Positions 40,608 through 62,568 of a stretch of DNA of 64,000 bases are shown piece after piece. Under the pieces are notes generated by a model. It made no database searches. It was not told the origin of the DNA and worked only from the letters and a program-made list of their open reading frames with translations. Position 1 is the first letter of the stretch; every line of letters begins with the position of its first letter. The stretch lies in the NCBI RefSeq assembly GCF_000495475.1, contig NZ_ASGZ01000013.1:62001-126000 (forward strand). The letters run 5' to 3'. The position numbers were made by a program, and so were the translations under genes. The DNA is from Candidatus Halobonum tyrrellensis G22 (GTDB lineage: Archaea > Halobacteriota > Halobacteria > Halobacteriales > Haloferacaceae).

Positions 40608-40621
40608 TTAGCGTCGTCTAA
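40608..40621. promoter_or_regulatory. TTAG-N6-CTAA operator before the DtxR-family gene
   Basis: TTAGCGTCGTCTAA is an inverted repeat of the DtxR-box type (TTAG...CTAA) and overlaps TTATAAGTTTT, the probable TATA region; it ends 14 bases before the ATG at 40636. A nearly identical 18-base block (TTAG-N-GTC-N-TCTAATTCG) occurs at 62555 before the PF11449 transporter. The position suggests autoregulation by the encoded metal-dependent repressor. Confidence 0.7.
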
Positions 40622-40635
40622 TTCGACACGAGACG

Positions 40636-41331
40636 ATGAGCGACGTCATGGAGGACTACCTGAAGGCCATCTACGTCCTCGAATCCGAGGAGGGACCGCC
40701 GGTGTCGACGTCGGCGATCGCGGACCGGTTGGGGAAGACCCCGCCGACGGTGACGAGCATGTTGGAGAAACTGGCCGACCGGGAGCTGATCCACCGCGAG
40801 AAGTACAAGGGCGTCGAACTGTCCGACGACGGCCGGACGCTCGCGCTCGAAGTGCTCCGCCACCACCGCCTGATCGAGGCGTACCTCGCCGAACACCTGG
40901 GGTACTCGTGGAGCGAAGTCCACGACGAGGCGGACACGCTCGAACACCACATCAGCGAGGAGTTCGAGCGGCGGGTCGCGGCCTCGCTCGACGACCCCGC
41001 GGTCGACCCCCACGGCGACCCGATCCCCGGGATCGACCTCGAACCGCCCGCCGACGACGGCTCGCGTCCCCTGACCACCGCGGCGGTCGGCGACCGGGTG
41101 GTCATCGCGCGCGTCAGCGACCGCGACGACGAGGAGTTGGAGTACCTCGACCGCGCGGGCATCGTCCCCGGAACGACCGTCGAGGTGGTCGACGTCGCGC
41201 CGTTCGGGATGGTGACCGTCGCCGTCGACGGCGGCGAGCAGAGCCTGCCCGAGTCGGTCGCCGCGTCGGTCCGCGTCCGGGCGACGGAGGCGGACAACGG
41301 CGTCCCCGACGAGGAGGTATCCGGCGCGTGA
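40636..41331 (+). CDS. DtxR/MntR-family metal-dependent regulator with FeoA-type C-terminal domain
   Basis: 231-residue regulator: winged helix at residues 3-62 (EDYLKAIYVLES..., TPPTVTSMLEKLADRELI), dimerisation and metal-binding helices at 65-125 (HHRLIEAYLAEHLGYSWSEVHDEADTLEHHISEEFERR, rich in H/E/C-type ligands), and an SH3/FeoA-like domain at about 150-225. The layout matches SirR/MntR of haloarchaea. The next gene, after 64 bases without a promoter, is a Gdt1/TMEM165-type transporter, which suggests control of manganese. TTAG-N6-CTAA operators occur here and at the PF11449 gene. Iron control (Idr type) is the alternative. Confidence 0.9.
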   Translation: MSDVMEDYLKAIYVLESEEGPPVSTSAIADRLGKTPPTVTSMLEKLADRELIHREKYKGVELSDDGRTLALEVLRHHRLIEAYLAEHLGYSWSEVHDEADTLEHHISEEFERRVAASLDDPAVDPHGDPIPGIDLEPPADDGSRPLTTAAVGDRVVIARVSDRDDEELEYLDRAGIVPGTTVEVVDVAPFGMVTVAVDGGEQSLPESVAASVRVRATEADNGVPDEEVSGA

Positions 41332-41395
41332 GTCGGGGGCGGAACCGGAGCCGGGACCGGGGTCGGCGCCCGGACTGCGGTCGGGGTGACTCCGC

Positions 41396-42199
41396 GTGGT
41401 AGCGTCGGCCGCCCCGTTCGCGCACGTGGCGTTCCCGCTCCAGAGCGGGCTGGACGCGGTGGTCGACCGCTACGCCGGGCTCGGCCCGTTTCTGGCGTCG
41501 TTCCTCGCGAACACGCTCGCGACGTTCGGCGACAAGGGACAGCTGGTGGTGATCACGCTCGCGACCCGCTACAGCGCCAAGCGCGTGTTCGCCGGCGCCG
41601 TCGCGGCGTTCGCGGCGTGGAGCGCGCTCGAAGTCGCGTTGGGCCAGTGGATCCAGGCCGCGCTCCCCGCCGGGGTGATCACGCTGGTGACCGGCCTGCT
41701 GTTCGTCGGCTTCGCGCTCTGGACGGCGGTGTCGGCCGCCCGGAGCCTCCGCGCCGACGACGGCGAGGGCGCGGCGCTGACGAGCGGCGGCATCGACGTG
41801 GGGCTGACCGGCCGACTCCTCCCGGAGCGGTCGTACCGCCACTTCGGCGCGCACGGCGGGCTGTTCACCGCGTTCGTCTTCATCGGCTTCGCGGAGTTCG
41901 GCGACAAGACCCAGCTGTTGACGATCAACCTCGCCGCGACGTTCCCCGACGCGCCGGTCGCGGTGTTCGCGGGCGTGCTCTCCGCGCTCGCGCTCCGGAC
42001 GGGCATCGACGCGGTGATCGGCGGCCGGATCGAGCGTCACGTCCCGACCGAGCGGATCGAACTCGGCGCGGCCGTGGTGTTTCTCGCGTTCGGGCTGACG
42101 GTGCTCGGGGTCGTCCCGCAGGCCGCGCTGCTCGCGGTGCTCGGCGCCCTCGCGCTCGCGCTGGTCGCCGGGCTGGTCCGGTCGTTCCGCCGGAACTGA
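41396..42199 (+). CDS. TMEM165/Gdt1 (UPF0016) family cation transporter
   Basis: 267-residue protein with six predicted membrane helices in two similar halves. The second half has the canonical FAEFGDKTQLLT motif; the first half has LATFGDKGQLVV, with the Glu replaced by Thr two residues before GDK and Gly in place of Thr/Ser. In bacteria this family (e.g. MneA) exports Mn2+; in eukaryotes it moves Mn2+ and Ca2+. A stretch of about 25 acidic, glycine-rich residues joins the halves. Begins at GTG 41396, 64 bases after the DtxR-family gene, with no promoter of its own, so co-transcription and metal control are likely. Confidence 0.87.
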   Translation: MVASAAPFAHVAFPLQSGLDAVVDRYAGLGPFLASFLANTLATFGDKGQLVVITLATRYSAKRVFAGAVAAFAAWSALEVALGQWIQAALPAGVITLVTGLLFVGFALWTAVSAARSLRADDGEGAALTSGGIDVGLTGRLLPERSYRHFGAHGGLFTAFVFIGFAEFGDKTQLLTINLAATFPDAPVAVFAGVLSALALRTGIDAVIGGRIERHVPTERIELGAAVVFLAFGLTVLGVVPQAALLAVLGALALALVAGLVRSFRRN

Positions 42200-42275
42200 C
42201 GGGCCGCCCCCGGCGGCTCGGACGCGTTCGCACGCCCCCGTGTGACTTAACACGGGCGTCCGCATCCCCAACCAC

Positions 42276-43019
42276 GTGACCACGCTGGCCGTCACCGCCG
42301 CCGCGGGGGTCGCGTTCGGGCTGGCGCTCGCGGCGCCGCCCGGCCCGATGAACGCGGTGATCGCCGAGGAGAGCGCCGTCCGCGGCCGGGCCGCGGGCGT
42401 CCGCGCGGGGCTGGGCGCCGCCACCGCCGACTTCACCTTCTTCGTGCTCGCGCTCGCGGGCGTCGTCGAGTTCGTCGACCGCTACCCCGCGGTCCGGGGC
42501 GCGATGGTGGCCGCGGGCGGCCTCCTAATGCTGTACTTCGCGTACGGCACCGCGCGCGACCTCCGCGGGTCGTTCCTCGACGCCGGCGCGGCGGCCGGAA
42601 CCGAGGAGGGAGCCGACGACGGGGAGCCGGCGTCGTCGGCGGGCTTCCGCAAGGCGCTCGTGCTCGCGCTCACCAACCCGTTTCAGGCGCTGTTCTGGCT
42701 CACCGTCGGCGTCGGCCTGCTCCGGCCGGGACGGATCGACGTGTTCGCCGCCGCGGGCGTCGACCGGTTGGCGGGCGCGCTGGTGGTCGAGACGGGCAGC
42801 CCCGCGCTGCTTGCGGGCTTCTTCGCCGGCGTCGTGCTGTGGGTGACGGGCTTTCCGACCGCTATCGCGGCCGCGCGCGACCGGGTTGAGGCGCTCGCCC
42901 CGGCGGTCGCCGCCGTCTCCGCGGTCGTCCTCGGCGGGTTCGGCGTCGCCTTCCTGGTCGACGCCGCCGGGACGTTCGGCCTCTTGGCGGCGCTCGCGGC
43001 GCTGGGCGGAGTCGCCTGA
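42276..43019 (+). CDS. LysE-family transporter
   Basis: 247-residue protein with about six membrane helices. LALAAPPGPMNAVIAEESAVRG near the N-terminus is the conserved LysE/RhtB region (GPGPx) and ALTNPFQALFWLTVG is the second conserved segment. The family exports amino acids and small polar compounds. An acidic loop at residues 105-120 separates the helices. Starts at GTG 42276. The neighbouring Gdt1 gene ends 76 bases before; no link in function is evident. Confidence 0.82.
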   Translation: MTTLAVTAAAGVAFGLALAAPPGPMNAVIAEESAVRGRAAGVRAGLGAATADFTFFVLALAGVVEFVDRYPAVRGAMVAAGGLLMLYFAYGTARDLRGSFLDAGAAAGTEEGADDGEPASSAGFRKALVLALTNPFQALFWLTVGVGLLRPGRIDVFAAAGVDRLAGALVVETGSPALLAGFFAGVVLWVTGFPTAIAAARDRVEALAPAVAAVSAVVLGGFGVAFLVDAAGTFGLLAALAALGGVA

Positions 43020-43039
43020 GGCCGCCGGAGGCGGGCGGG

Positions 43040-44068
43040 TCAGTCGTCGTCGGGCCGTGACCGCTCCGCGGCCGGGGCGCGCGCCTCCGAGAGGGGCTGG
43101 TGGCTCCGTTCGTCCATGATGAACCCGCCGGAGGCGGTGGTGTGTTCGGCGATGACCGCCGCGCGCAGGATGTACGACGTGAGCACGATGAACGGCAGCA
43201 GCGCGACGGCGTACGCGACCCCGAAGAACAGCGCCAGGTTCTCGACGCCGAAGGTGGTGCCGGCGAACGACTCCGAGGTCACCGCGAGCAGGACGTACGA
43301 GACGAACATGATCGACGGCAGTCCCGTGTACAGCAGGTCCCGCGAGAGGTACGAGAACTCCCGCTTGTAGTAGATGGTCTTGAAGTACTCGCGGGCGGTG
43401 GCGAAGTGGCGGAGCGCGTCCATCACCTCCTCGATCCGGGCTTCGGTCTCGTCGGGCAGGTCGGCGTCGCTCGCCCCGAGCAGGCGCGCCTCCTCGATAT
43501 ACGCCGTCGGGTCGTACGCGGAGGCGAACAGCGCCACGTCGAACGACCCGGTGGTCGAGTCGAGGACGCTCTCGGTCCGGTCGAGCGCCTCGTTGGTCCG
43601 GTCGATGAACGCCTCGAAGTCGCCGTGCGCCTCCTCCGAGAGCGACGCCGGAACGTCGAGGTCGTCGAGTTTCGTCCGCGTCGCCGCGACGATGGCGCCG
43701 AGGAACACGCTCGGGTGCGCCGACGACGTGTCCGACCCGAGCCGGGTCGCGGTCTGCTGGCGGAACTCCCACGAGTCGGAGATGCGCTCGTACTGGTTGC
43801 CGAGCGGGGTCAACTCCTGTGAGACCACCAGCGAGTTGATCGAGGCGACGATCGAGACCAGCAGGATGATCCCGCTCAACAGCGTGTTGAACAGCGTCTG
43901 TACCGTGTTCTGCTCGCTGAGCAGCTGTCGCATCTCCACCGACGCGACGACGCCGAGACCGACGAGCGTGACGACCACCGCGACGAACAGGACGAGCGTG
44001 ACGAACCGGCGCTTGCCGGTGAGTACGAGCCAGTCGACCGGACGTTGCAGGTGTGCCGAGATGTCCAT
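43040..44068 (-). CDS. Haloarchaeal membrane protein with four helices, unknown function
   Basis: 342-residue protein with two helices near the N-terminus (about 21-43 and 60-85), a cytoplasmic alpha-helical region of about 150 residues, and two more helices near 230-250 and 265-290, followed by an acidic tail. The helical region contains SHPSVFLGAIVAATRTKLDD and repeated heptads. No catalytic motif is recognised. It may be a small channel (the arrangement of helices is bestrophin-like, but the signature is not present). It is divergent from egsA, with 88 bases between. Confidence 0.78.
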   Translation of the reverse strand: MDISAHLQRPVDWLVLTGKRRFVTLVLFVAVVVTLVGLGVVASVEMRQLLSEQNTVQTLFNTLLSGIILLVSIVASINSLVVSQELTPLGNQYERISDSWEFRQQTATRLGSDTSSAHPSVFLGAIVAATRTKLDDLDVPASLSEEAHGDFEAFIDRTNEALDRTESVLDSTTGSFDVALFASAYDPTAYIEEARLLGASDADLPDETEARIEEVMDALRHFATAREYFKTIYYKREFSYLSRDLLYTGLPSIMFVSYVLLAVTSESFAGTTFGVENLALFFGVAYAVALLPFIVLTSYILRAAVIAEHTTASGGFIMDERSHQPLSEARAPAAERSRPDDD

Positions 44069-44156
44069 ACGGCGGTGTGTGCGGCCGGGTCCACAGAGGT
44101 AGTGACCAGTTACGGCGGACGGGAAGCCCTTTCACCCGGCGCGGCGACTCCGAGGT

Positions 44157-45203
44157 ATGTTCGGGAAGACGACGTGGATCAAGCTCCCGCGGAACGTCCT
44201 CGTCGGACACGGGGTGCTCGACCACGTGGGCGAGGCGGTGGCCGAACTGTCGCTCGCCGGCCGGCCGCTGTTGGTCACGAGTCCGACGCCGAGCGAACTC
44301 GTCGGCGACCGCCTCCGCGCGCAGTTCGACGACGCCGCGGTGACGACGGTCGAGTCGGCCAGTTTCTCCGAGGTGGCGACCGTCGTCGAGGCGGCGGAGG
44401 CCGCGGACGCGACCTATCTGGTCGCACTCGGCGGCGGGAAACCGATCGACATCGCGAAGATGGCGGCCGACGAACTCGGCGTCGGCTTCGTCTCCGTCCC
44501 CACGGCGGCGAGCCACGACGGCATCGTCTCCGGCCGGTCGTCGATCCCCGAGGGGGGCAGCCGCCACTCGGTCGCCGCGGACCCGCCGCTGGCGGTGGTC
44601 GCCGACACCGAGGTGATGGCGGACGCGCCGTGGGACCTCACGACCGCGGGCTGTGCGGACATCATCTCCAACTACACCGCGGTGAAAGACTGGCGGCTCG
44701 CCCACCGGCTGAAGAACGTCGAGTACAGCGAGTACGCGGGCGCGCTCGCCGAGATGACCGCCGAGATGCTGGTCGGCAACGCCGACTCGATCAAACCCGG
44801 GCTGGAGGAGTCGGCGTGGGTGGTCTCGAAGGCGCTCGTCTCGTCGGGGGTGGCGATGTCCATCGCCGGGTCGTCGCGGCCGGCGTCGGGCGCTGAACAC
44901 CTGTTCTCCCACCAGCTCGACCGGATCGCCGAGAACCCCGCGCTCCACGGCCACCAGGTCGGGGTGGGGACGGTCATGGTCGAGTACCTCCACACCGGCG
45001 AGAGCGGCCAGTGGGACGCGATCCGCGACGCCCTCGCGGACATCGGCGCGCCCACGACGGCGCGGGAACTCGGCGTCGACCCCGAGACGGTGATCGAGGC
45101 GCTCACCACCGCCCACGAGATACGCGACCGCTACACCATCCTCGGCGACGGCATGAGCGAGTCGGCCGCCCGCGAGGTGGCCGCCTTCACGGGCGTGGTC
45201 TGA
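44157..45203 (+). CDS. egsA: Glycerol-1-phosphate dehydrogenase
   Basis: 348-residue archaeal sn-glycerol-1-phosphate dehydrogenase, which makes the backbone of archaeal lipids from dihydroxyacetone phosphate. NAD(P)-binding LVALGGGKPIDIAKMAA, PTAASHDGIVSGRSS, ADIISNYTAVKDW, the zinc ligands HLFSHQLD and HGHQVGVG are all present. Full length and canonical. It uses the ATG at 44157; the upstream region is shared with the divergent membrane protein. This gene alone is enough to mark the source as an archaeon. Confidence 0.96.
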   Translation: MFGKTTWIKLPRNVLVGHGVLDHVGEAVAELSLAGRPLLVTSPTPSELVGDRLRAQFDDAAVTTVESASFSEVATVVEAAEAADATYLVALGGGKPIDIAKMAADELGVGFVSVPTAASHDGIVSGRSSIPEGGSRHSVAADPPLAVVADTEVMADAPWDLTTAGCADIISNYTAVKDWRLAHRLKNVEYSEYAGALAEMTAEMLVGNADSIKPGLEESAWVVSKALVSSGVAMSIAGSSRPASGAEHLFSHQLDRIAENPALHGHQVGVGTVMVEYLHTGESGQWDAIRDALADIGAPTTARELGVDPETVIEALTTAHEIRDRYTILGDGMSESAAREVAAFTGVV

Positions 45204-45231
45204 GTACTCCGCGCCCGGTCGGGGGTCGCGG

Positions 45232-45912
45232 TCAGTCGGCCCGCTCGCGCCGCGCGGCGGGGGTCGGCTCCTGCCGGTCGGCGCCGAGTCGCGAGAGGCG
45301 GGCGGCGAGCGTCGGGTGCATCGAAAGCGAGAGGCGCGCGAGCGGTCCGGGGTCCGGGTCGTCGGGGAGGTGGCCCGCCTCCGCCAGCCGGGTCAACGCG
45401 TCGGCGAACGCGCCGCCGGCCGCCCGCGCCGCGAACGCGTCGGCGTCGAACTCGGTCCAGCGGGCGACCCGCGCGGAGAGGTACGCGAGCGGGAGCGCGA
45501 GCGCCGCGCCGGCCCACAGCCCCGCGGTCCCGTACAGCGTGGCGTCGACCGCCCACGCGACGGCGTACGCGCTGGGGACGCCCACCCGGAACGGGACGTG
45601 CCGGCGCGCGAGGTGGCCGTACTCGTGGCGGACGACCGCCGCCGCCTCCGCGGGCGCGAGCGCGGCGAGCAACCCGGTCGAGACGAACACGCGCCCGTCG
45701 CGCGACGAGAACCCCGCGGCGTACGCGACCACGCGGTCGTCGGCGTCGACGACGACCACCCGGTCGGCGGGCACGCCGACCGCCGCGACGGCGTCGGCGA
45801 CGGGCGCGGGGAGGTCGCCGACCCGCTGGGTCCGGGCGGCGATCCGCGGCGCGATGCGGACGCCGAGAAAGCCCGCGACGATGAGCGTCCACAGCTCCCA
45901 CCAGTCGAGCAT
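45232..45912 (-). CDS. M48-family zinc metallopeptidase
   Basis: 226-residue protein with an N-terminal membrane helix (LDWWELWTLIVAGFLGV), the HEYGH zinc site in VVRHEYGHLARRH, and EFDADAFAARAAG where the E is the third zinc ligand (ExxxDxxA) of M48 peptidases. It lacks the usual second and third helices of HtpX, being shorter. It may take part in membrane-protein quality control. The ATG at 45912 is used here; in-frame GTG codons at 45948 and 45957 would add a hydrophobic stretch and are possible. It converges with egsA. Confidence 0.86.
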   Translation of the reverse strand: MLDWWELWTLIVAGFLGVRIAPRIAARTQRVGDLPAPVADAVAAVGVPADRVVVVDADDRVVAYAAGFSSRDGRVFVSTGLLAALAPAEAAAVVRHEYGHLARRHVPFRVGVPSAYAVAWAVDATLYGTAGLWAGAALALPLAYLSARVARWTEFDADAFAARAAGGAFADALTRLAEAGHLPDDPDPGPLARLSLSMHPTLAARLSRLGADRQEPTPAARRERAD

Positions 45913-46190
45913 CCACGCCGCGACCGCCTCCAGCGGCGCGAGCGGCACGCTACCCACGAACTCGCTCCTCCGAACGCGGGACGGCCGGCCGGCGAACGGG
46001 ACGCTGGCGGGACAGCACGCCACGGAGTCGGTCACATCGCGTTGTATGTCTTTCCCCGCTCCGCCCGGCGGTCCGGCCGACCCGCCCGGTTCGGTCCCGA
46101 ACTGCCGTTCGTGTGTCCGCCCGCGCGACCGGACCGGGGCTGGGCCGCGGGGGCGCCCGCGGCGGCGGACGGGGGCGGCCGCGGCGGGGG

Positions 46191-46706
46191 TTACGGCGGG
46201 TACGCCCCGACCGCCGGGTACGGCACGTCGTCGGGGCGGTCGGCGACCCACCGCACCGCGTCCGTCCCGTCGCCGCGGGGACGGGGGTCGCCGCGGTCGT
46301 ACGCCGCCTCGAACACCACGACCAACCGGTGGAGCGACGGCCGGGAGGGCGCCGACTCGACCACCCGACGGGCGGTCAGAACGCCGGTGAGGGCGGCGTC
46401 GACGCCGGTCTCCTCGCGGGTCTCGCGGACCGCGGTCCGGGTCAGCGGCTCGCCCGACGCCTGCTCGCCGCCCGGCTCCGACCACCCGGTCTCGTCGTCG
46501 CGGCGGACCACGAGCGCCCGGCCGTCGTCGCGGCGGACCCACGCGCCCGCGGCGCCGACGGTGCCGGCGTCGAACCGCTCGCGGTCCCGGTCCCACGACT
46601 CCGGGTCGACCTCCCGAGCCGTCCGCTTGACGGGGAATCGACCCCACTCGTCGCGGAGACGGTCGAGTGCGTCCGCGACGGCCCCGCGTGACCCCTCCGA
46701 TATCAC
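46191..46706 (-). CDS. Nudix hydrolase
   Basis: 171-residue protein with a complete Nudix box GEQASGEPLTRTAVRETREETG (23-residue signature; GX5EX7REUXEEXGU), which binds magnesium and hydrolyses nucleoside diphosphate-X compounds. A helical N-terminus of about 40 residues (VADALDRLRDEWGRFPVKRTARE) precedes the fold. Substrate is unclear. GTG at 46706 is taken as start. 278 bases without a gene separate it from the M48 gene. It is divergent from the DUF420 gene. Confidence 0.86.
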   Translation of the reverse strand: MISEGSRGAVADALDRLRDEWGRFPVKRTAREVDPESWDRDRERFDAGTVGAAGAWVRRDDGRALVVRRDDETGWSEPGGEQASGEPLTRTAVRETREETGVDAALTGVLTARRVVESAPSRPSLHRLVVVFEAAYDRGDPRPRGDGTDAVRWVADRPDDVPYPAVGAYPP

Positions 46707-46829
46707 GTCAGTAACTACCTCGCGCTCGTCCCCCGTAAGTGTTGGCGGGCCGACGTTCTGTGACCGGGGAGCGGGGCGATTCGAGCGCCGAACCCGAAGA
46801 CGCAAGGTCGGTCGCGTCCAAGCGCGGCC

Positions 46830-47465
46830 ATGGCAACAGCCGACGCGTCCGGACCGCTCCGGAGCGTGAAGGAGCACCCGCGCGCCACCGTCGCCGTGCT
46901 GTCGGTCGTCGGGTACGCGCTCGTCCTCGGGACGTTCGCGGGGGTCGTCCCCGGCTTCCCCACGCTGACCGAGGGAGAGGTGAACCTCCTCAGTCACGCC
47001 ATCGCGGCCGTGAACGCGGTGACGACGGTGTCGTTGGTGCTCGGCTGGCGGTGGATCCGACGAGGCGAGGTGCGGAAGCACGCCGGCGCGATGAGCGCGT
47101 CGTTCGGGCTGATCATGCTGTTTCTCGTCCTCTATCTCACGAAGGTCGGCGGCGGTCCCGGCGAGAAACACATCGTCATCGAGTCGGGGATGTTCCTCGG
47201 CGCGTACGCCGACGCGGTGTACTGGGGGTACATCGGGATGCTCGCGGTCCACATCCTGCTGTCGGTGGTGTCGGTGCCGGTGGTGCTGTACGCCATCGTG
47301 CTCGGGTGGACCCACACGCCCGAGGAACTCCGGACGGAGACGCCCCACCGGCGGGTCGGCCGTATCGCCGCCGGGACGTGGATCCTCTCGCTCACGCTCG
47401 GGGTGGTCACCTACCTCATGCTCAACTGGGTGTACGGCTACGAGTTCGTCCGGGTCGCGGGGTAG
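46830..47465 (+). CDS. DUF420 family membrane protein
   Basis: 211-residue integral membrane protein with five helices. The pattern LLSHAIAAVNAVTTVSLVLGW, RKHAGAMSASFGLIMLFLVLYLTKV and YIGMLAVHILLSVVSVPVVLY, RRVGRIAAGTWI with conserved histidines matches DUF420, which in bacteria is linked to cytochrome oxidase and heme assembly. In haloarchaea such proteins are usually near copper oxidases, but not here. Histidines in HIA.. and VH.. could bind heme or copper. ATG at 46830 follows a promoter region shared with the Nudix gene. Confidence 0.85.
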   Translation: MATADASGPLRSVKEHPRATVAVLSVVGYALVLGTFAGVVPGFPTLTEGEVNLLSHAIAAVNAVTTVSLVLGWRWIRRGEVRKHAGAMSASFGLIMLFLVLYLTKVGGGPGEKHIVIESGMFLGAYADAVYWGYIGMLAVHILLSVVSVPVVLYAIVLGWTHTPEELRTETPHRRVGRIAAGTWILSLTLGVVTYLMLNWVYGYEFVRVAG

Positions 47466-47566
47466 GGGACCCGCCACCGGCCCGCCGAATCGACCCACGG
47501 CGGACGGCCGCCCACCCGCGGAACCGACCCGCGGGCGTTAAGTCCGCCGGGGGAGAACCGGGGACG

Positions 47567-48304
47567 ATGAGCGACCTCCGGGTTGCGCTGACGGGCGACG
47601 ACGCCGCGGTCCGCCGCCGCGTCGACGAGGCCGGGTGGACGGTCGTACCGTCGGACGCGCCCGACGCGGACGCGCTCGTGACGGTCGGCGAGCGGGCGCT
47701 CGTCGACGCCGCGCTGTCGGGACCGGCCGCGCCGCTGTTGCCCGTAGTGCCCGCCGACGCCGGCGCCGCCGAGGCGGCCGGGGGTCGTCACGCCGTCCGC
47801 GCGGCGGAGGTGGGCGCCGCGCTCGACGCGGTGGCGTCCGGCGACGCCGCCGCGGTCGACCACCCGGTGTTGGCCGTCTCCGACAGCGGCGAGCGGGTGG
47901 CGCGCGCGCTGTTCGACGTGAGCCTGATCACGAGCGAGCCGGCGGGCATCTCCGAGTACTCCGTCCGCGCCGACGACCGGCGGCTCGACGGCTTCCGCGC
48001 CGACGGGGTGGTAGTCGCGACGCCGCTCGGCAGCGCCGGCTACGCCCGTGCGACCGGCGGGCCGCTTCTCGAACCCGGCACGGGACTCGCGGTCGTCCCC
48101 GTCTCGCCGTTCGCCACCCGGTGGGACGCGCGCGTCGTCGACGGGCGCGTGCGCCTCCGGGTCGAACGCGACGACACCGAGGTGTCGCTGGTCGCCGACG
48201 ACCGGGTCGTCCGGCCGGTGTCGCCGGCGGCGACGCTCGACGTGACCCCGGCGGGGAGCGTCGAACTGCTCGACGTGGGGCGCCGGTTCCCGCCGCGGCG
48301 GTAG
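47567..48304 (+). CDS. NAD kinase-like protein with degenerate catalytic loop
   Basis: 245-residue protein similar to the NAD kinase fold in the C-terminal beta domain (SEYSVRADDRR, DGFRADGVVVATPLGSAGYA, ATGGPLLEP, VPVSPFATRWDARVVDG). In ordinary NAD kinases the N-terminal half has the GGDG motif; here the corresponding place is ALVTVGERAL, without the catalytic aspartate, and the region is short and alanine-rich. It is therefore likely to be a binding protein or pseudoenzyme rather than an active kinase. Active NAD kinase should be encoded elsewhere. ATG at 47567. Confidence 0.8.
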   Translation: MSDLRVALTGDDAAVRRRVDEAGWTVVPSDAPDADALVTVGERALVDAALSGPAAPLLPVVPADAGAAEAAGGRHAVRAAEVGAALDAVASGDAAAVDHPVLAVSDSGERVARALFDVSLITSEPAGISEYSVRADDRRLDGFRADGVVVATPLGSAGYARATGGPLLEPGTGLAVVPVSPFATRWDARVVDGRVRLRVERDDTEVSLVADDRVVRPVSPAATLDVTPAGSVELLDVGRRFPPRR

Positions 48305-48367
48305 CGGGCGGGGACGCCGCCGCGCGGATTGGAAAGCTACTAATGAGTCGTGGACCGAGGTGGAACC

Positions 48368-48820
48368 ATGCAACCGCTACCGCTGGAGTTCCTCGTCCCG
48401 GTGGGGGCGCTGGAGTCCGTCGCGGGGCTCCTGCCGCTCGTCATCTTCGTGCTGGTGTTGGTGAACTTCGGGCTGCGGGTGCTCGCACAGCGCTCGTACG
48501 AGTCGGCGGCCGAGGAGGGCGACGACGACGAGGCGCTCTCGCGGTACCTCCCGCTCGAAGCCGTGAACGTCCTCCTGGTCCTGCTGTCGTTCGCGTACCT
48601 GGTCGTCCACCCGCACGCCGGGATGGTGCTGTCCGTGCTCGTGCTCGGGATGGTGCTGTCGGACTTCTTCGAGTACGAGGCCCGTCGGGTCGAGGCCCGC
48701 AACGGGATGGAGCTCGAACGCCCCAACAGTTCGATCGTGATGTCGGTGCTGGTGTTCCTCTACGCCGCCTTCGAGTCGGTGTTCTTCCTCATCCAGCCCT
48801 ACTGGACGCAGATCATCTGA
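48368..48820 (+). CDS. Haloarchaeal membrane protein, unknown function
   Basis: 150-residue protein with four hydrophobic segments (about 16-38, 65-83, 86-100 and 122-143). Acidic loop residues 45-57 are typical of haloarchaea. PLEAVNVLLVLLSFAYLVVH and SSIVMSVLVFLYAAFESVFF are the main features. No motif indicates a function. ATG at 48368; AGCTACTAATG at about 48335-48345 is a promoter-like box 25-30 bases upstream. It stands between two unrelated genes. Confidence 0.75.
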   Translation: MQPLPLEFLVPVGALESVAGLLPLVIFVLVLVNFGLRVLAQRSYESAAEEGDDDEALSRYLPLEAVNVLLVLLSFAYLVVHPHAGMVLSVLVLGMVLSDFFEYEARRVEARNGMELERPNSSIVMSVLVFLYAAFESVFFLIQPYWTQII

Positions 48821-55344: not shown

Positions 55345-55723
55345 GTGGTACTCGTCGACACGGTCGGTGTCGACGCCGGCTAACCTTCCGCCCTCCCATT
55401 CAATGTACGCCTACCAGCGATCCGCTCCATCCGTCCGGGGATACCCCCCGGTTCCGGGGAAACGCACGCTCGTTCGGGGTGCGCCCGCCGATCGCCGACC
55501 CGTCGGGAGCGACCCGCGTGGGCCGACCCGGCGCCGTCGCCGGTCGACCCGCCGGACGACCGGCCGCTGGAACGGCCACACGACGGGTTACCGAGTTCGG
55601 GTGGTAACTACCCGCATGATTACGGTACTGTTTCGGCCGGGGCGTACCGGCTGTGTATAACTATTACCCAACTGACGAACCCGCCCCTAGGCGTTCGGCC
55701 GACGGTCGGACGTCACCCACACC
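55345..55723. other. Divergent promoter region between M14 peptidase and vWA genes
   Basis: The 379-base region contains no gene. Features seen are the 21-base palindrome at 55354-55374 and an A/T-rich segment TGTGTATAACTATTACCC at 55652-55669 about 60 bases before the vWA ATG, which is a likely promoter. A shared module between the two proteins suggests the region coordinates expression. Confidence 0.6.
55354..55374. promoter_or_regulatory. Palindrome in the leader of the M14 peptidase gene
   Basis: GTCGACAC-GGTCG-GTGTCGAC has perfect eight-base arms and lies 10-30 bases upstream of the peptidase ATG (minus strand, 55344). In a leaderless or short-leader transcript it would coincide with the promoter; it could be an operator or a small RNA hairpin. 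Confidence 0.5.
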
Positions 55724-57154
55724 ATGAGACGACGTGACTACGTGCGACTACTCGGTGGAACAGGAGCGGCGGCGGGACTCGGACTCGCCGGAACCGGCGT
55801 CGGCGCGGCGGCGGAGCCGTGTTACTATCAGGTCGACTTCGTGGCGGGTGAGGTGGAGGAGCAACTCGGCGAGAGCGACGACGACTTCTACGGCGCCCAA
55901 GAGCGGCTGATACAGTACGCGCTCGGCGAGGGGAGTGAGGTGACCCACCGCGACACGTGGATCAACTCGCTCGACACCGAGACGCGGCGGGCGGTCACGT
56001 CCGACCCCATCGCGGTGGAGGGCGGGACGGCATCGGTGTCGTTCACCGTCGCCGACGGCGCGGAGCTCTCACTGTCGCTCGCGGTGTACTCGATGCCGGC
56101 GTCGACGTTCAGCTTCGACACCGCCGACGACCAGGAACTGACCGACTCGGCCACCGGCACGTTCGGTCCCGGCGAGCACACCCTCGAAGTCACGCTCCCG
56201 TGTGAAGACGGCGGCGAGGAGCGCGTCGAGTGTCCGGTCGACCCCGCCGAGGTGACGGAGTCCGACCTGGTCGACCTGTTGAGCGTCGAGTCGTCGTCGT
56301 TCCCGGAGGTGTCGGTGTTCGCGCGCGTGCTGACCGACGCCGGCGACGCGGGCGACCTCCCGGCGGACGCCTTCGAGGTCTGTGAGAGCGGCTACGTCCA
56401 AGACGCCTCGGTGTCGTCGTCGACCACCGGCGGCGGCGGCGCGGCGGACATCGTGTTCGTCCTCGACGACACCGGGAGCATGGGGTCGTTCATCGAGGGC
56501 GTGCTCGACAACATCCGTACGTTCGCGAACGACCTCGACTCCGGCGACATCGACAGCCGCTACGCGCTGATCACGTTCAAGGACGACGTCGAACTCGACC
56601 AGGAGTTCACCGGCGACGTGGCGACCCTCGAAGCCGCTCTCGACGACGTGGTCGCAAGCGGCGGCGGCGACTTCCGCGAGAACGACTTCGAGGCGGTCGA
56701 GCGCGCGACCGAACTCGACTACCGGCCGGGTGCCCAGCGGGTGGTCGTCGACATCACCGACGCGGCAGCGCAGGTCGACGACCCCGACGCGTACTCCAAC
56801 GACGAGAGCGTCACCGACCTCACGATGGCGGACGTCGAGAGTCTGCTCGCGGGGTACACGTACATCGCCGTCTCGCGCGACTTCAGCGAGGAGTACGGCG
56901 ACTTCTACGACGACTACTACGGCGACGGCGACAAGCAGGTGCTCGCCGAGAACGTCGGCGGGACGTGGATCGACCTCGACAGCCCCGACTTCAGCGCGGT
57001 GCTCGAAGAGATCAGCGGTATCCTGACCTCGACGTACACGCTGACGTACACCGCCGCTACCGACGGCGACGCCGAGCGGACGGTGCTGGTGCGCGTCGAG
57101 GACCCCGTCGAGGGAACCCTCTATCGGACGCTCACGTACACGGTGCCGTCGTAA
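55724..57154 (+). CDS. Tat-secreted vWA-domain protein with shared N-terminal module
   Basis: 476-residue protein. MRRRDYVRLLGGTGAAAGLG is a twin-arginine signal. Residues 35-160 (YQVDFVAGEVEEQLGESDDD ... LEVTLPC) are about 60% identical by eye to the C-terminal module of the divergent M14 peptidase, including DDDFYG.QERLIQY and RDTWINSL. A linker with cysteines leads to a von Willebrand factor A domain from residue 242 (ADIVFVLDDTGSMGSF, the metal-site motif) to about 430, and a beta-rich end. vWA domains bind ligands or proteins through a metal. A partnership with the M14 enzyme at the cell surface is likely. Confidence 0.85.
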   Translation: MRRRDYVRLLGGTGAAAGLGLAGTGVGAAAEPCYYQVDFVAGEVEEQLGESDDDFYGAQERLIQYALGEGSEVTHRDTWINSLDTETRRAVTSDPIAVEGGTASVSFTVADGAELSLSLAVYSMPASTFSFDTADDQELTDSATGTFGPGEHTLEVTLPCEDGGEERVECPVDPAEVTESDLVDLLSVESSSFPEVSVFARVLTDAGDAGDLPADAFEVCESGYVQDASVSSSTTGGGGAADIVFVLDDTGSMGSFIEGVLDNIRTFANDLDSGDIDSRYALITFKDDVELDQEFTGDVATLEAALDDVVASGGGDFRENDFEAVERATELDYRPGAQRVVVDITDAAAQVDDPDAYSNDESVTDLTMADVESLLAGYTYIAVSRDFSEEYGDFYDDYYGDGDKQVLAENVGGTWIDLDSPDFSAVLEEISGILTSTYTLTYTAATDGDAERTVLVRVEDPVEGTLYRTLTYTVPS

Positions 57155-57263
57155 GCTAAGCCCGGACCGGGAGCGCGCGGCCGGACGGGGCGCTTTCGCC
57201 CCGTCGCCGCCGTCCCACGCCGGGCAGGCGGCGGCCGTCGCGACCCGCCGGCCGGCGGCTACC

Positions 57264-58406
57264 CTACAGTTCGCCGAGTTTGCGGAGCAACTGCCCGCGG
57301 TAGCGCTCGTCGGCGGTGACGCCCTTGAGTTCGAGCACGTTCCGTTCGAGTTTGTCGAGCGCGACGTGGAACGCGTGTTCGGAGCCGTACCCCTCGCCGG
57401 ACCCCGCGACCTGGCCGTGGGTGGTGCGGAGGCGGATCTGCGCTTGGATCAGCGGCGTGCCGCGGAGCTTCTCCTTGTGTTCGTGAAACCGGACGTGCGC
57501 GTGGAGCACGCGCATCTCCTGGTACTTGCCGGACACCTGCGTGATCGACTCGCGGATGTCCTCGCGGGAGATCGTATCCAGGAGGTCGACGTTCGTGATC
57601 TGGACGTCCATCGCGTCCTCCTCGGTGAACGTGAGCGCGCGGAGCACGTCGGTCTTGGTGACGACGCCCATCACGAGGTCGTCGTTCTCCTCGGGGGTGA
57701 CGACCAGCCCGTTGATATCCTCGCTCAACATGGTCTCGACCGCCTCCCGGACCGACATGTCGACGGTGGTGGTCAACACGGGGCTGCTCATCATGTCGTA
57801 CACCGGCAGGTCGAGCAGGCGGTCGAGGTCGCCCGACCGGTCGCCGCGGCCCTGGCGGTCGTTGTCGCGGACGACGAAGTCGACGATGTCGTGGGTGGTG
57901 AGGATCCCCGTCAGCCGGCCGTCGTCGTCGACGACCGGGAGCCGCGAGATGCCGTGTTCGCGCAGCCGGTTGATCGCTTGCCCCACCCGGGAGTCGTCGG
58001 CGATGGAGATGATGTCGTCCGTGTAGATGTCGTCGACGTCGAGCGCGTCCAGGTTCTCGAGGACCGCCTCGAGGATGGCGTCGGCCGTCACGATCCCGTA
58101 CAGCTTCGACCCCTCGTAGACGGGGGCGACCTTCACGTTCCCCTCGACGAGCACGCGCGCCACCTCGCGGACGTCCTCGTGGAGGTCGACCTCGGGGGCG
58201 GCCTTCATCAGCGCCGCCGCCTTGGTGTCGTCCTCGATGCGCGACCGGACGAGGTCGCGCTCCCCGATGACCCCCGCGTACTCGCCGTCGTTCATGACGA
58301 CGACCCCCTTGGGACGCTCGCGGTCGAACAGCGAGCGGATCTTCCCGAGTCGTTCGCCAGCCTCGACCTCGACGAACTCCGGTACGGCGATATCCTCGAT
58401 GTCCAT
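57264..58406 (-). CDS. Four-CBS-domain protein fused to a ribosome hibernation factor-like domain
   Basis: 380-residue protein. Four CBS repeats run from residue 1 to about 262 (e.g. KGVVVMNDGEYAGVIGERDL, GISRLPVVDDDGRLTGILT, DINGLVVTP...VMGVVTKTDVLRAL), forming two Bateman modules that usually bind adenine nucleotides. The C-terminal part (266-362; NVDLLDTISREDIRESIT, HVRFHEHKEKLRGTPLIQAQ, HAFHVALDKLERNVLELKG) resembles the HPF/RaiA ribosome-binding fold, with beta-alpha-beta arrangement and basic residues. This would link energy status to ribosome dormancy. ATG at 58406; the leader region is the 576-base gap that follows. HPF assignment is by pattern and needs a profile search. Confidence 0.82.
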   Translation of the reverse strand: MDIEDIAVPEFVEVEAGERLGKIRSLFDRERPKGVVVMNDGEYAGVIGERDLVRSRIEDDTKAAALMKAAPEVDLHEDVREVARVLVEGNVKVAPVYEGSKLYGIVTADAILEAVLENLDALDVDDIYTDDIISIADDSRVGQAINRLREHGISRLPVVDDDGRLTGILTTHDIVDFVVRDNDRQGRGDRSGDLDRLLDLPVYDMMSSPVLTTTVDMSVREAVETMLSEDINGLVVTPEENDDLVMGVVTKTDVLRALTFTEEDAMDVQITNVDLLDTISREDIRESITQVSGKYQEMRVLHAHVRFHEHKEKLRGTPLIQAQIRLRTTHGQVAGSGEGYGSEHAFHVALDKLERNVLELKGVTADERYRGQLLRKLGEL

Positions 58407-58982
58407 AACTCTCCGTGATGGTACGCCACCCCGCGTCTTGAAGGTTGGTCCGACTCCCGGCGACCGGGAGCCGTCGAAACCGCCGCCGTCCCGCGGCCGT
58501 CCCGGGTCGGGTGCGGCAGCCGCGGGCGGGGCTACCGCTCGCGCGTGACGCCGATTTTCCGCATCTCGCCGCGGGTTCGGGGGTGGGACCCGCCTTCCGC
58601 CCTCTCTCCGGACCCGATCGTCGAGCGTGTCTCCGAACGGGGGAGCGACCCGGGAGCCGTCCACCCGGTCCACCCGCGGGCGACGCCGACGCTCGCGGGA
58701 TACGAGGTCACGGCCAGTCGCAGACACTCGTCGTTTAGTTCAGTTAGTCGTCGCAGACGTGATTTCGATAGTCCTACGCTCCAGTGAAATTCGGGGGACC
58801 GGAACGAGCAGAGACGGCAGTAGCCGGACGAGTAGCTACGGGACTATCGATCGGGGGATCGTTCACCTCCAACGCGTGGTAGCGAACACACTCGGCGTTC
58901 GTCTCGGCCGTCACGGACGCACGTTTCTTTCCGCGGGCGAAACGTTGAGGTTTCCGGTACTGAATCCTCGTACGAGCTCCCC
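58407..58982. other. 576-base gap between CBS-HPF and amidase genes
   Basis: No gene is supported: the possible frames are arginine- and serine-rich and lack coding bias. Composition falls toward the right half. Two nine-base arms CGATAGTCC (58766-58774) and GGACTATCG (58841-58849) could form a hairpin with a 66-base loop. The left part serves as promoter for the CBS gene on the minus strand and the right part (CGTTTCTTTCC at about 58921-58931) for the amidase. A small RNA gene cannot be excluded. Confidence 0.4.
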
Positions 58983-60512
58983 ATGTCCACGCCGCACGCC
59001 GACGACTTCGACCCGCTGGAGACCACTGTCGCGGAGATTCACGACGCCATGGCGGCCGGCCGCGTCACCAGCGAGGCGCTGGTCGACCGCTACCTCGCTC
59101 GAATCGACGCGTACGACCCCGAGTTGAACGCGGTGCTCGTGGCCGACGAGACCGCCCGCGAACGCGCCCGCGACCTCGACGAGCGGTTCGAGACCGAGGG
59201 GCTCACCGGGCCGCTCCACGGCGTGCCCGTCCTTCTCAAGGACAACCACGACACCCGCGACCTGCCGACCACCGCGGGGTCGGTCGCGCTCGCCGACTCC
59301 CGGCCGCCGCGCGATGCGTTCGTGGTCGAACGGCTCCGGGCGGCCGGCGCGGTCGTCCTCGGCAAAACCAACCTCCAAGAACTGTCGTTCGGCGTCGACA
59401 CGGTCAGTTCGCTCGGGGGTGCGACCCGGAACGCGTACGACCTCGACCGCCGACCCGCGGGGTCGAGCGGCGGGACCGCGGCCGCGGTCGCCGCCAACCT
59501 CGCCGCGGTCGGCACCGGCTCGGACACCTGTTCGTCGGTGCGCTCGCCGCCCGCGTTCAACGACTGCGTGGGCGTCCGCCCCACCCGGGGGCTGGTGAGC
59601 CGGACCGGCATCGTCCCGCTGAGCGGCACCCAAGACACCGCGGGACCCATCGCTCGGACCGTCGGCGACGCCGCGCGCGTCCTCGACGCGATGGCGGGGT
59701 ACGACCCCGCGGACCCGGTGACCGCCCGCGGCGTCGGCCGCGTCCCCGACGACGGCTACGCCGCCCACCTCGACCCCGACGGGCTGGCGGGCGCGCGAGT
59801 CGGCGTCGTCCGGTCGCTGTTCGGGCGCCGCGACGACGACGGGACGACCGGGACCGACGCCGCGGCCGTGACCCGCGTGGTGGACGACGCGCTCGCGGAG
59901 ATGGCGGACGCGGGCGCGACCGTGGTCGACCCGGTCGACCCGGTCGACCTCGGCCGGCTAGAGAGCGCGCGCGTCCTCGGATTCGAGTTCGCGCGCGACT
60001 TCGACCGCTACCTCGCCGAACTCGGCGACGCCGCCCCCCACGACTCGCTCGCCGCCGTCTACGCCACCGGCGAACTGGAGCCCTCGGTCGCCGAGCGGTT
60101 CGAGGGGGCGGATATCCTCGACGTCGACGCCGAGGCGCTCGACTCGAACCCGGCGTACCTCAGACGCCTCCGGCGGCGCGAGGAGTTGCGCGAGGAGGTG
60201 CTCGCCGCGATGGCCGACGACGACCTCGACGCGTTGGTCTACCCGCCCTCGCGGGTGCCGCCGGTCGCGCTCCCCGACCACCAGCCGTTCGCGGAGATGA
60301 ACTGCGAACTCGCCGCCCACACCGGCCTGCCCGCCATCGTGCTCCCCGCGGGATTCACCGACGACGGGCTCCCGGTCGGGGTGGAGCTACTCGGTCGAGC
60401 GTTCGCGGAGCCGCGGCTGTTCGAGTTGGGTGCCGGCTTCGAGTCCGCGACAGCACACCGCCGGCCGCCCGAGCGGTTCGGACGGCTGGCGGAGTGCCCC
60501 GACTCCGCGTGA
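58983..60512 (+). CDS. Amidase signature family enzyme
   Basis: 509-residue amidase. The Ser-cisSer-Lys elements are PVLLKDN (catalytic K), PAGSSGGTAAAVAANLAAVGTG (with the GSSGG motif) and SDTCSSVRSPPAF (the residue triad region, where GGSIR is replaced by CSSVR). N-terminal TSEALVDRYLARIDAYDPELNAV is the helical start. It hydrolyses an amide bond; the wide family includes GatA, but the neighbours here do not suggest a GatCAB complex. The CSSVR deviation from the usual GGSIR may alter the active site but the nucleophile region is kept. ATG at 58983. Confidence 0.88.
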   Translation: MSTPHADDFDPLETTVAEIHDAMAAGRVTSEALVDRYLARIDAYDPELNAVLVADETARERARDLDERFETEGLTGPLHGVPVLLKDNHDTRDLPTTAGSVALADSRPPRDAFVVERLRAAGAVVLGKTNLQELSFGVDTVSSLGGATRNAYDLDRRPAGSSGGTAAAVAANLAAVGTGSDTCSSVRSPPAFNDCVGVRPTRGLVSRTGIVPLSGTQDTAGPIARTVGDAARVLDAMAGYDPADPVTARGVGRVPDDGYAAHLDPDGLAGARVGVVRSLFGRRDDDGTTGTDAAAVTRVVDDALAEMADAGATVVDPVDPVDLGRLESARVLGFEFARDFDRYLAELGDAAPHDSLAAVYATGELEPSVAERFEGADILDVDAEALDSNPAYLRRLRRREELREEVLAAMADDDLDALVYPPSRVPPVALPDHQPFAEMNCELAAHTGLPAIVLPAGFTDDGLPVGVELLGRAFAEPRLFELGAGFESATAHRRPPERFGRLAECPDSA

Positions 60513-60681
60513 GGAGTCACGGACGGTCCGCCCTCGCGGCCGGATGGCGACCCGCGACCCCGGCGGGACGGACCGGGGCGACCTCGCGCGACCGCCGCGG
60601 CGGCAGCCTCCCGTGTCGGCCGTGGGGACGGGGGCGCCGCCGCCGTGGAAGCGGCGCGACTCGGTGGACCGCCCGCCACAC

Positions 60682-61152
60682 CTACGGCTCCCGTTCCGAC
60701 CGCGACGCGTCGCGGTCGGCGGGCGTGCTCACCGTCATCACCGGGGCCGGCGAGTCCCGAACCACCCCTTCGGCGACGCTGCCGGTCAGGTAGCGCTCCA
60801 GCCCGGTCCGGCCGTGCGTGCCCATCACGACGAGGTCGACGGCGTGGTCGGTCGCGTAGTCGACGATCCGCTCGTCGGGGTCGCCCTCCAGTACGTCGAC
60901 CACGAGTTCGACGCCCGCGTCGGCGGCGCGGCTCCGGATCGCGTCGAGCGCTTCGCGACTCCGCGCCTCGCCGAGTTCCTCGAGGACGTCGCGGACCTCG
61001 ACTTTCGAGACCGCCAGCGCGCTCGTTCCCGTGTCGATGACGAACACCGCGTGCAGCGTCGCGCCGTACGTCGCCGCGAGGTCGAGCGCGTGGGCGGCCG
61101 CGGCCGCCGCGTGGTCGCCGCCGTCCGTCGGGAGGAGGATCCGGTCGTACAT
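60682..61152 (-). CDS. Universal stress protein
   Basis: 156-residue UspA-family protein. RILLPTDGGDHA is the N-terminal strand and MGTHGRTGLERYLTGSVAEG the ATP-binding G2xG9xG(S/T) motif, so nucleotide binding is likely. It starts one base after the stop of the PF11449 transporter gene, so the two are in one operon under the upstream TTAG-N6-CTAA site. In haloarchaea such proteins often accompany transporters as regulatory partners. C-terminus has a short basic tail. Confidence 0.9.
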   Translation of the reverse strand: MYDRILLPTDGGDHAAAAAAHALDLAATYGATLHAVFVIDTGTSALAVSKVEVRDVLEELGEARSREALDAIRSRAADAGVELVVDVLEGDPDERIVDYATDHAVDLVVMGTHGRTGLERYLTGSVAEGVVRDSPAPVMTVSTPADRDASRSEREP

Positions 61153-61153
61153 C

Positions 61154-62530
61154 TCAGAGCACCCCGAATCCGAACTGGGCGTACGGCCAGAAGTAGTACA
61201 CGGCGACCCCGACGACGACCCCCGGGATCGTGGTGTAGATGGTGGCGACGATGGCGGCCTTCGTATCGATCGCCAACAGCGGGAACAGCGCGTCGCCGTC
61301 CTGGCTGATCGCGTTCGCCACCAGCGCCGAGAAGGGGACCGCCTCCTCGAGCGCGTACAGTTGCGCGAACACGATGTGGGCCGCACAGCCGGGGATCAGC
61401 CCGAGCGTCGCACCCGCGATGGGCGCCCACACGCCGGCCGCGTTCGCGAGCGCGGCGATGTCGAACCCGAAGACGAGGAGACCGTACTCGTAGAGGAGGT
61501 AGCCGGCGATGACCCACACCGTGACCATCGCGGTCTCCGTGGCGGCGTGCTGGAACGTCTTGTAGACGCTGCCGAACGAGTCCGGCAGGCGGCCGGTCTC
61601 CCCCTCGCCGATGTAGTGGCGGCCGACGAAGTAGAGGTAAAACGACAGCGTGGTGCCGACGAGACCCGCGACCGTGAACAGCCCGTCGTACGTGGGGGCG
61701 ACGACCCACGCGGGTTCCTCCGCGCCCCGGGCGAGGTACAGCACGCCCGCGACCAGCGCGCCCGCGAGGACGACCCACCAGAGGACGTGGACCGCGTGAC
61801 TGAGACGTTCGAGCAGTCGCGACTCGGGGAGGTAGCCCGGCGTGTCGCCGCCGTGGTCGTGAGCGTGGTCGTCGTCGGGCCGTTCGTAGTCGGGGACGCT
61901 CGGTCCCCCCTCGGCGACGCTCGCGGTGGCGAAGCCGCCGTCGGTCATCGGGCGGCTCATCCGGTCGACCGCGTCGTCGACCCAGCCCACGCCGAGTCCG
62001 AACAGGTCGATGGCGTAGCCGAACAGCACCGCGGCGACGAACGCCAGCCCGTAGGCGTACAGCGCCGCCTCCGGCGCGAGCGCGAGGATGATGAACGCGG
62101 AGTCGCCCGCCGTCGCCGCCAGCGCCGCGACGACGGTGCCGAAGCTCACCGTCCCGCGGATGTACAGCGGCATCGCGACGATGGCGCCGCCACAGCCGGG
62201 CGTCAGCCCGAGGAGCGCGCCCGTGAGCGGTTGGGCGCGTTCGTGCTCCTCCAGCCACCCGGTGAGCCGCCCGTCGAACGCGTACTGGACCAGGCTGAAC
62301 AGGAGGACGGTCGCGCCCACGAACCCCGACACCTGCACGAACCCCTCCCGCCAGGAGCCGATCAGGATGTCGAGGACCTCCTGGACGGTGGGACCGAACG
62401 TCCCCGCCGGTAGCTGTAGCGGGGTCACGACGCCACGCCTCCCCGCCGACTGCGACGCGCCGAACCGAGGGACCGCACGGAGCGAAGCCTGCCACTCATT
62501 CTCACCCGTGTGTGGTGGCTCGAATTGCAT
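61154..62530 (-). CDS. PF11449-family putative manganese/heavy-metal transporter
   Basis: 458-residue membrane protein in two similar halves, with about ten helices. The motif LTGALLGLTPGCGGAIVAMPLYIRGTVSFG and the second copy ATLGLIPGCAAHIVFAQLY, ALVANAISQDGDALFPLLAID are the hallmark of the PF11449 family. It was once called an arsenic exporter and is now linked to Mn2+ control, often found beside the manganese riboswitch in bacteria. A cytoplasmic loop has a histidine/aspartate cluster (YERPDDDHAHDHGGDTPG) that could bind metal. The ATG at 62530 is used; GTG at 62428 is a possible alternative because the first 34 residues have poor coding bias. It is the first gene of an operon with the USP gene. 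Confidence 0.85.
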   Translation of the reverse strand: MQFEPPHTGENEWQASLRAVPRFGASQSAGRRGVVTPLQLPAGTFGPTVQEVLDILIGSWREGFVQVSGFVGATVLLFSLVQYAFDGRLTGWLEEHERAQPLTGALLGLTPGCGGAIVAMPLYIRGTVSFGTVVAALAATAGDSAFIILALAPEAALYAYGLAFVAAVLFGYAIDLFGLGVGWVDDAVDRMSRPMTDGGFATASVAEGGPSVPDYERPDDDHAHDHGGDTPGYLPESRLLERLSHAVHVLWWVVLAGALVAGVLYLARGAEEPAWVVAPTYDGLFTVAGLVGTTLSFYLYFVGRHYIGEGETGRLPDSFGSVYKTFQHAATETAMVTVWVIAGYLLYEYGLLVFGFDIAALANAAGVWAPIAGATLGLIPGCAAHIVFAQLYALEEAVPFSALVANAISQDGDALFPLLAIDTKAAIVATIYTTIPGVVVGVAVYYFWPYAQFGFGVL

Positions 62531-62554
62531 AACAGTTGCTACCGAAGCAAAAAT

Positions 62555-62568
62555 TTAGAGTCTTCTAA
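62555..62568. promoter_or_regulatory. TTAG-N6-CTAA operator before the PF11449 transporter
   Basis: TTAGAGTCTTCTAA lies 24 bases upstream of the transporter ATG (minus strand) and overlaps the A/T-rich promoter CTAAATTTTT. With the flanking TTCG it matches the site before the DtxR-family gene at 40608 in 15 of 18 positions. This is a likely binding site for that regulator. Confidence 0.7.

Follow-up and report, generated by a model that had tools for sequence, protein, structure and literature searches.

The stretch of DNA under study, hereafter the window, comprises 64,000 nucleotides of the haloarchaeon Candidatus Halobonum tyrrellensis G22 (contig NZ_ASGZ01000013.1, C13:62001-126000), whose genome was searched as 3.68 Mb in 72 contigs, and it carries two loci that are preceded by related palindromic sites. 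At the first, a DtxR-family metalloregulator, SirR, is followed by a cation transporter of the GDT1 family and by a LysE-family transporter; at the second, a transporter of family PF11449 is adjoined by a gene for a universal stress protein (Table 1). The initial annotation had proposed that a manganese-responsive regulator acts on GDT1 and PF11449, as exporters, through sites that share the block TTAG-N-GTC-N-TCTAATTCG; both sites are present exactly as claimed, and the block is read on the + strand in each. The membership of the regulon, its operator, the promoter layouts and the phyletic pattern described below were established by computation. The evidence argues for a regulon repressed by manganese-loaded SirR, in which PF11449 proteins of one clade stand in for an importer and are controlled, and probably work, as an uptake system, a reading to which a probability of roughly 0.55 is given.

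Table 1. Genes and promoter elements of the two loci, in window positions
Feature	Position	Strand	Remarks
TATA-like element TTATAAG, sirR-GDT1 operon	40599..40605	+	Predicted; the 76 orthologous promoters have an A+T peak immediately before the site
Operator 1, TTAGCGTCGTCTAA	40608..40621	.	Between TATA-like element and start codon
SirR/MntR-type DtxR-family regulator, 231 aa	40636..41331	+	HTH, metal-binding/dimerisation and FeoA/SH3 domains
GDT1 (PF01169, UPF0016/TMEM165) cation transporter	41396..42199	+	Second operon gene; Pfam E 3.4e-36
LysE-family transporter	42276..43019	+	Probable third operon gene; Pfam PF01810
Universal stress protein (Usp)	60682..61152	-	Adjoins PF11449 stop codon; Pfam PF00582, E 1.5e-34
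PF11449 (ArsP_2, 'putative 10TM heavy-metal exporter') transporter, clade A	61154..62428	-	Pfam E 2.7e-109
TATA-like element TGTTATG, PF11449 gene	62528..62534	-	Predicted; coincides with the A+T peak at +33 to +39 in ZnuA and PF11449-A promoters
Degenerate half-site TTCGG	62542..62546	-	Lies 22 nt past the operator 2 start when read along the gene
Operator 2, TTAGAGTCTTCTAA (TTAGAAGACTCTAA in gene orientation)	62555..62568	.	Upstream of PF11449 gene

The SirR-type regulator and its conserved operator

The window regulator passes the Pfam cut-offs of the DtxR/MntR family for all three of its domains (PF01325, 62.3 bits against 26; PF02742, 97.7 against 27; PF04023, 64.8 against 23), and it falls below the NCBIfam equivalog cut-off for MntR (NF047407, 225.9 bits versus 350) as well as below those of other MntR models. 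Methionine and cysteine at the positions of Met10 and Cys102 are the iron-type residues of DtxR and IdeR, while aspartate or another acidic residue there denotes the manganese type; aligned to IdeR, the window protein has Asp at both. In addition, D7, H77, E81, D100, E103 and H104 are invariant in 118/118 aligned orthologues, one of the 119 regulator sequences being too short for this comparison. Domains, substitutions and invariant ligands together support the proposed assignment of an MntR-like protein with a predicted metal site of the manganese type. Gene order identifies the protein as the orthologue of SirR: Haloferax genomes have three DtxR genes, of which the middle one is the orthologue; a gene for a 160-aa DtxR protein lies 39-42 kb from it, the third is about 320 kb away in genome G084, and Haloferax volcanii enters this comparison through its locus tags only (sirR being HVO_0819; PMC11349517).

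Conservation of the operator was assessed in a set of 119 genomes of the family, all of which carry an orthologue of the regulator (the best one per genome was read), by counting matches to TTAGACNNGTCTAA with at most two mismatches, the reversed motif serving as control; only the within-genus shuffle described below, and none of these counts, allows for relatedness. The motif stands upstream of the regulator in 76/119 genomes, of 31 of the 32 PF11449 loci and of 64 of the 67 genes for ZnuA-type ABC importers, the reversed control giving 0/119, 0/32 and 0/67. Each of the two window sites has two mismatches to this consensus. Among PF11449 genes the motif is missed at L177, and among ZnuA genes at L349, L392 and L405; three distant PF11449 matches (G009, G053 and G068; 37-38% identity) were not counted, the gene of G062, which is split over two contigs, was represented by its first part (L293), and only ZnuA matches with E < 1e-100 entered the count, many genomes having weaker homologues (for instance G019, G065, G069 and G080). 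The prediction that the regulator-GDT1 operon and PF11449 genes have one operator in common is thus borne out, across genera.

Exact sites number 67 in the 119 genomes (54 genomes matched), versus 6 for the control. The 53 exact-site loci that were read comprise 10 sirR-GDT1 loci, 6 lone GDT1 genes, 7 PF11449 genes, 2 DtxR paralogues and 28 others, the latter being 18 ZnuA-like loci (assigned by clustering, with PF01297 confirmed for two), 3 multicopper oxidases (two of them Pfam-confirmed), 1 MgtE, 3 Cdc6-like and 3 unresolved loci. At the scale of the window genome, the pattern TTAGN6CTAA occurs exactly 15 times, and its reversed control 7 times. Four of these sites are not of the iron type discussed below: the window pair, one in an apparent 23S rRNA gene (read by eye), and one at C58:27854, which precedes a second PF11449 gene (Pfam E 2e-116). 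Three of the four therefore lie at proposed targets, since they precede the regulator, the window PF11449 gene and its paralogue. The TTCG that the two window sites share is not kept at PF11449 promoters, and the family consensus is TTAGACNNGTCTAA.

GDT1, which matches PF01169 in two stretches (123.9 bits, cut-off 27), is present in 106/119 genomes and lies directly downstream of the regulator in 83/119. Operator and adjacent GDT1 are both present in 72 genomes and both absent in 32, with GDT1 only in 11 and the operator only in 4 (Fisher 2e-15); these four genomes have no GDT1 but do have PF11449. At 80 named loci that include other haloarchaeal genera, both were found at 44, neither at 28, the operator only at 5 and GDT1 only at 3. 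Where GDT1 lies away from the regulator (23 genomes), the lone gene has the motif in 18/23, of which 12 come from the 17 genes read and 6 from exact-site loci; those without it are L357, L358, L361, L363 and L366, the second copies L367 and L368 falling outside the 23. LysE is found near the regulator in 95/119 genomes, with or without GDT1 and the operator, and was rejected as the reason for the operator, since 16 genomes lacking both operator and GDT1 still have it next to sirR. The operator therefore follows GDT1, because the two co-occur, lone GDT1 genes keep the motif, and LysE persists without either.

The initial annotation had also placed a protein regulator where bacteria employ an RNA switch, and a passage of one review has bacterial GDT1/UPF0016 genes under a manganese riboswitch in 328/333 strains (PMC7380456). 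A search for this riboswitch (RF00080), which found matches in three well-known bacteria as control, gave none in the window and none in the 145 genomes of the class (0/145), which fits the proposed replacement. As for the claim that PF11449 too is under this riboswitch in many bacteria, the literature search gave no paper on it. Since the operator precedes regulators, PF11449, ZnuA and lone GDT1 genes, and the riboswitch is absent, a single SirR regulon joins both window loci.

Operator-like sites were also seen at other genes. A multicopper oxidase gene has an exact SirR-type site in G011, G061 and G110 (L298 1221-2492, L299 2607-3875 and L300 2568-3863), for which a role as manganese oxidase is possible. 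In G071, a genome without a GDT1 match, an MgtE-type cation transporter (L167 1501-2672) lies downstream of an exact site, and TTAGACNNGTCTAA sites also belong to the divergent DtxR paralogues L157 and L163, whose identity to the window regulator is 43-47%. In Haloferax-group genomes (L153, L156 and L159), a Cdc6-like gene is preceded, at a distance of about 430 nt, by an exact TTAGACNNGTCTAA that is probably unrelated to SirR and perhaps lies in an origin region.

Promoter layout and exchange with the ZnuA-type importer

The window PF11449 protein matches positions 3-359 of the 359-position profile (366.1 bits, cut-off 32.5). Its open reading frame begins at an ATG at 62530, which falls within the TATA-like element; translation more likely starts at the GTG at 62428. 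Two clades, A and B, are cleanly split (support 100/100) in a tree of 31 PF11449 proteins. The suggested link with a stress protein extends beyond the window, as a universal stress protein gene lies downstream in 8/10 clade-A loci. Next to the second PF11449 paralogue in the genome (contig C58, L316 3986-7000) lies, as judged by eye, a metal ATPase of the P1B type that has heavy-metal-associated domains.

Both window sites had been said to overlap their promoters. Operator 1 lies directly 3' of its TATA-like element; operator 2 lies about 20 nt upstream of its own, from which a half-site separates it, and does not overlap it. The same difference is found in the family: the A+T peak taken as TATA-like is just 5' of the site at regulator promoters, and 33-39 nt 3' of the site start at the promoters of ZnuA and clade-A PF11449 genes. 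Furthermore, a half-site TTNGN exactly 22 nt past the site start is present in 58/64 ZnuA and 7/9 PF11449-A promoters, being rare elsewhere (1/76 regulator and 1/22 PF11449-B promoters; Fisher 2e-35 for the pooled groups). The window PF11449 promoter, with a full site and a half-site 22 bp on, has this importer-type layout. The position of the site alone, 3' of the TATA-like element or upstream of it, was tried as a means to tell importers from exporters and rejected, because ten of the 64 ZnuA promoters carry the site close to the estimated start (within 21 nt); the tandem half-site holds better than position, being present in 8/10 of these close-site promoters and in 50/54 of the others.

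The phyletic distribution of the two transporters is also of relevance. Motif-bearing PF11449-A genes occur in 8 genomes, and a strong ZnuA is found in 0/8 of these versus 67/111 of the others (Fisher 0.00096), a pattern of exclusion that gives 0.006 when ZnuA is shuffled within genera. The exchange is seen inside several genera (g3, g12, g14 and g17), and in G048, the ninth genome with clade A, ZnuA is present and the PF11449-A gene is devoid of the motif. The window genome itself has no strong ZnuA-type importer. Nramp was considered as a third complementary importer and dropped, having no relation to ZnuA or PF11449-A; neither PF11449-B nor GDT1 shows a significant relation of exclusion with ZnuA.

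Sign of control and direction of transport

Information on the sign of control comes from Halobacterium NRC-1. In one study, deletion of sirR causes zurA, zurM and ycdH to rise with manganese present, sirR mRNA correlates positively with these three genes, and VNG0535C, a membrane protein of unknown function, shares the expression cluster of the importer genes (PMC1779511). A passage elsewhere gives sirR the gene ID 536 in Halobacterium (PMC1971269), and the Halobacterium loci L117, L121 and L130 have GDT1 as the neighbor of sirR; from the adjoining number and these loci, we infer that VNG0535C is GDT1. A review, in the part that treats sirR, describes it as a manganese-dependent autorepressor (PMC3600143). 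The simplest reading is that manganese-loaded SirR represses all genes of the regulon.

In the mechanism that would result, dimers of manganese-loaded SirR would occupy the palindrome TTAGACNNGTCTAA. At sirR-GDT1-LysE, the single site between the TATA-like element and the start would lead to autorepression, also holding GDT1 down. The PF11449 gene, like the ZnuABC genes of relatives, would be read from a promoter in which a full site and a half-site two helical turns on lie upstream of the TATA-like element, a layout that would place a second dimer next to the promoter and thus shut the gene when manganese is plentiful. PF11449-A would take the place of the ABC importer, and for this reason it would be controlled, and probably work, as an uptake system. 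Repression of GDT1 and PF11449 with the same sign, like the direction in which they transport, is an inference. A more specific version is tentative: PF11449-A would be a secondary transporter for manganese uptake and would repeatedly have taken the place of ZnuABC under the same SirR array, and GDT1 may also import.

Several observations weigh against uptake under manganese repression. Bacterial GDT1 is said to export manganese in the relevant passage of PMC7380456, and an exporter repressed by manganese makes little sense, such that a manganese-repressed GDT1 is odd if it exports; an uptake direction is nonetheless possible for GDT1, because its chloroplast relative CMT1, according to the same source passage, moves manganese inward and restores a yeast uptake mutant. 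PMC3600143 also reports a rise of sirR under metal stress. The TATA-like elements were placed by A+T content. The two PF11449 clades probably transport alike, since they are about 60% identical and have the same conserved motifs, and clade B has single-site promoters and does not exclude ZnuA, which is present in 10/22 genomes with it versus 57/97. Finally, replacement of the importer is not a strict rule, because the window genome has two Nramp homologues and 17/119 genomes have none of ZnuA, PF11449-A and Nramp.

The strongest competing explanation, although unlikely, retains the two exporters of the initial annotation: SirR, bifunctional as MntR of Bacillus is, would keep the importer repressed and have GDT1 and PF11449 on in manganese excess, through activation by its manganese-loaded form or through release of a repressor by metal. 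The riboswitch-controlled manganese export by bacterial GDT1 (328/333 strains) and the rise of sirR in metal stress, both from the review passages cited above, favor it, as do the Pfam name of PF11449 and a promoter layout at regulator, GDT1 and PF11449-B genes that is unlike that of most ZnuA genes. However, site 1 lies between the TATA-like element and the start, the position of a repressor, and ten of 64 ZnuA promoters likewise have a site close to the start; the window PF11449 promoter is of the importer type; and sirR mRNA tracks the importer genes, with which VNG0535C clusters (PMC1779511). In view of the same operator at 64/67 ZnuA genes, the layout at PF11449, the exclusion of ZnuA and the repression of the importer by SirR with manganese reported in that study, manganese-induced export by both transporters is doubtful. 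With regard to net metal export by PF11449, promoter layout and phyletic pattern suggest the opposite direction.

It is less probable still that PF11449 exports or carries another metal, such as zinc, cobalt or arsenic, its co-control by SirR serving to balance manganese against other metals. The NCBIfam name of the family is arsenic efflux protein, its conserved PGCG motifs contain cysteine, the C58 paralogue has the P1B-type ATPase as neighbor, and in one of two fold comparisons the best solved structure was ArsB (Z 11.1, rmsd 5.2 over 263 residues). This match is in the middling range, where ArsB is accompanied by CNT and DASS transporters, a set that includes both directions of transport, and a Foldseek search with the predicted PF11449 model (pLDDT 76) gave no significant match (best E 0.13). 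The presence and absence of ZnuA and the ZnuA-type promoter argue against a metal other than manganese.

That the sites belong to an iron regulon of the TroR/Idr type (TTAGGCNNGCCTAA), with no separate manganese regulon, is very improbable. The outer half-sites are identical, and 11 of the 15 exact sites in the genome are of the iron type, TTAGGN4CCTAA, several of them standing before iron/siderophore-type lipoprotein genes (read by eye). Iron-type sites on contigs C2 (L001-L005) and C5 (L006-L008) precede genes for siderophore-type binding proteins, several being paired about 36 nt apart so as to flank a TATA-like element. Against this, TTAGGN4CCTAA is matched at neither window site, the inner bases differing consistently; the window regulator has manganese-type ligands; and the genome has just one other full DtxR protein, encoded on contig C29, which shares about 75% identity with the 160-aa Haloferax protein encoded 40 kb from sirR and is the TroR orthologue. 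Chance matching in AT-rich promoter sequence can be dismissed, since the enrichment within the window, modest by itself (four matches with at most one mismatch versus a shuffle mean of 0.77, four being reached in 1/100 shuffles), is accompanied by the empty reversed-motif controls in all three gene sets.

Relation to known systems and significance

The window system resembles the Bacillus subtilis MntR regulon in having a manganese-sensing DtxR-family regulator of uptake genes, with Asp at the position of MntR Asp8, and differs from it in its operator, its archaeal promoters and an extra FeoA/SH3 domain. With the haloarchaeal TroR/Idr iron regulon it shares the TTAG...CTAA palindrome and the regulator family; that regulon, in contrast, has the operator TTAGGCNNGCCTAA, iron and siderophore genes as targets and a separate regulator, here on C29. 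A close parallel is SirR, known from Halobacterium NRC-1 and from Haloferax volcanii (HVO_0819), to which the regulator is related as an orthologue by gene order and which, in Halobacterium, represses zurM-zurA-ycdH with manganese (PMC1779511); the difference lies in the lack of a strong ZnuA-type importer in the window genome and in PF11449-A genes that carry the importer promoter layout. The yybP-ykoY riboswitch (RF00080) likewise controls UPF0016 genes in bacteria (PMC7380456, in the passage cited), but is an RNA switch and is absent from the 145 genomes of the class.

Control of the manganese ABC importer by SirR is already known. The link between regulator and GDT1 is probably in print as well, since the passage of PMC7380456 cites Leyn and Rodionov 2015, on archaeal DtxR-family regulons, for four halobacterial UPF0016 genes under manganese control. 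Searches of the open literature gave no report that places PF11449 in the SirR regulon or describes the 22-bp half-site or an exchange with ZnuA, and the literature search gave no functional study of the PF11449 family.

These results provide a precise and testable haloarchaeal manganese operator, distinct from that of iron, and tie the PF11449 family to manganese. Regulation and gene exchange may contradict the name 'exporter' that annotation pipelines have spread through the family. If PF11449-A is indeed an uptake system under SirR repression, the function of the family could be reassigned by one deletion strain and one uptake assay, and the different promoter layouts would serve as a model of the control of several promoters by a single archaeal regulator.

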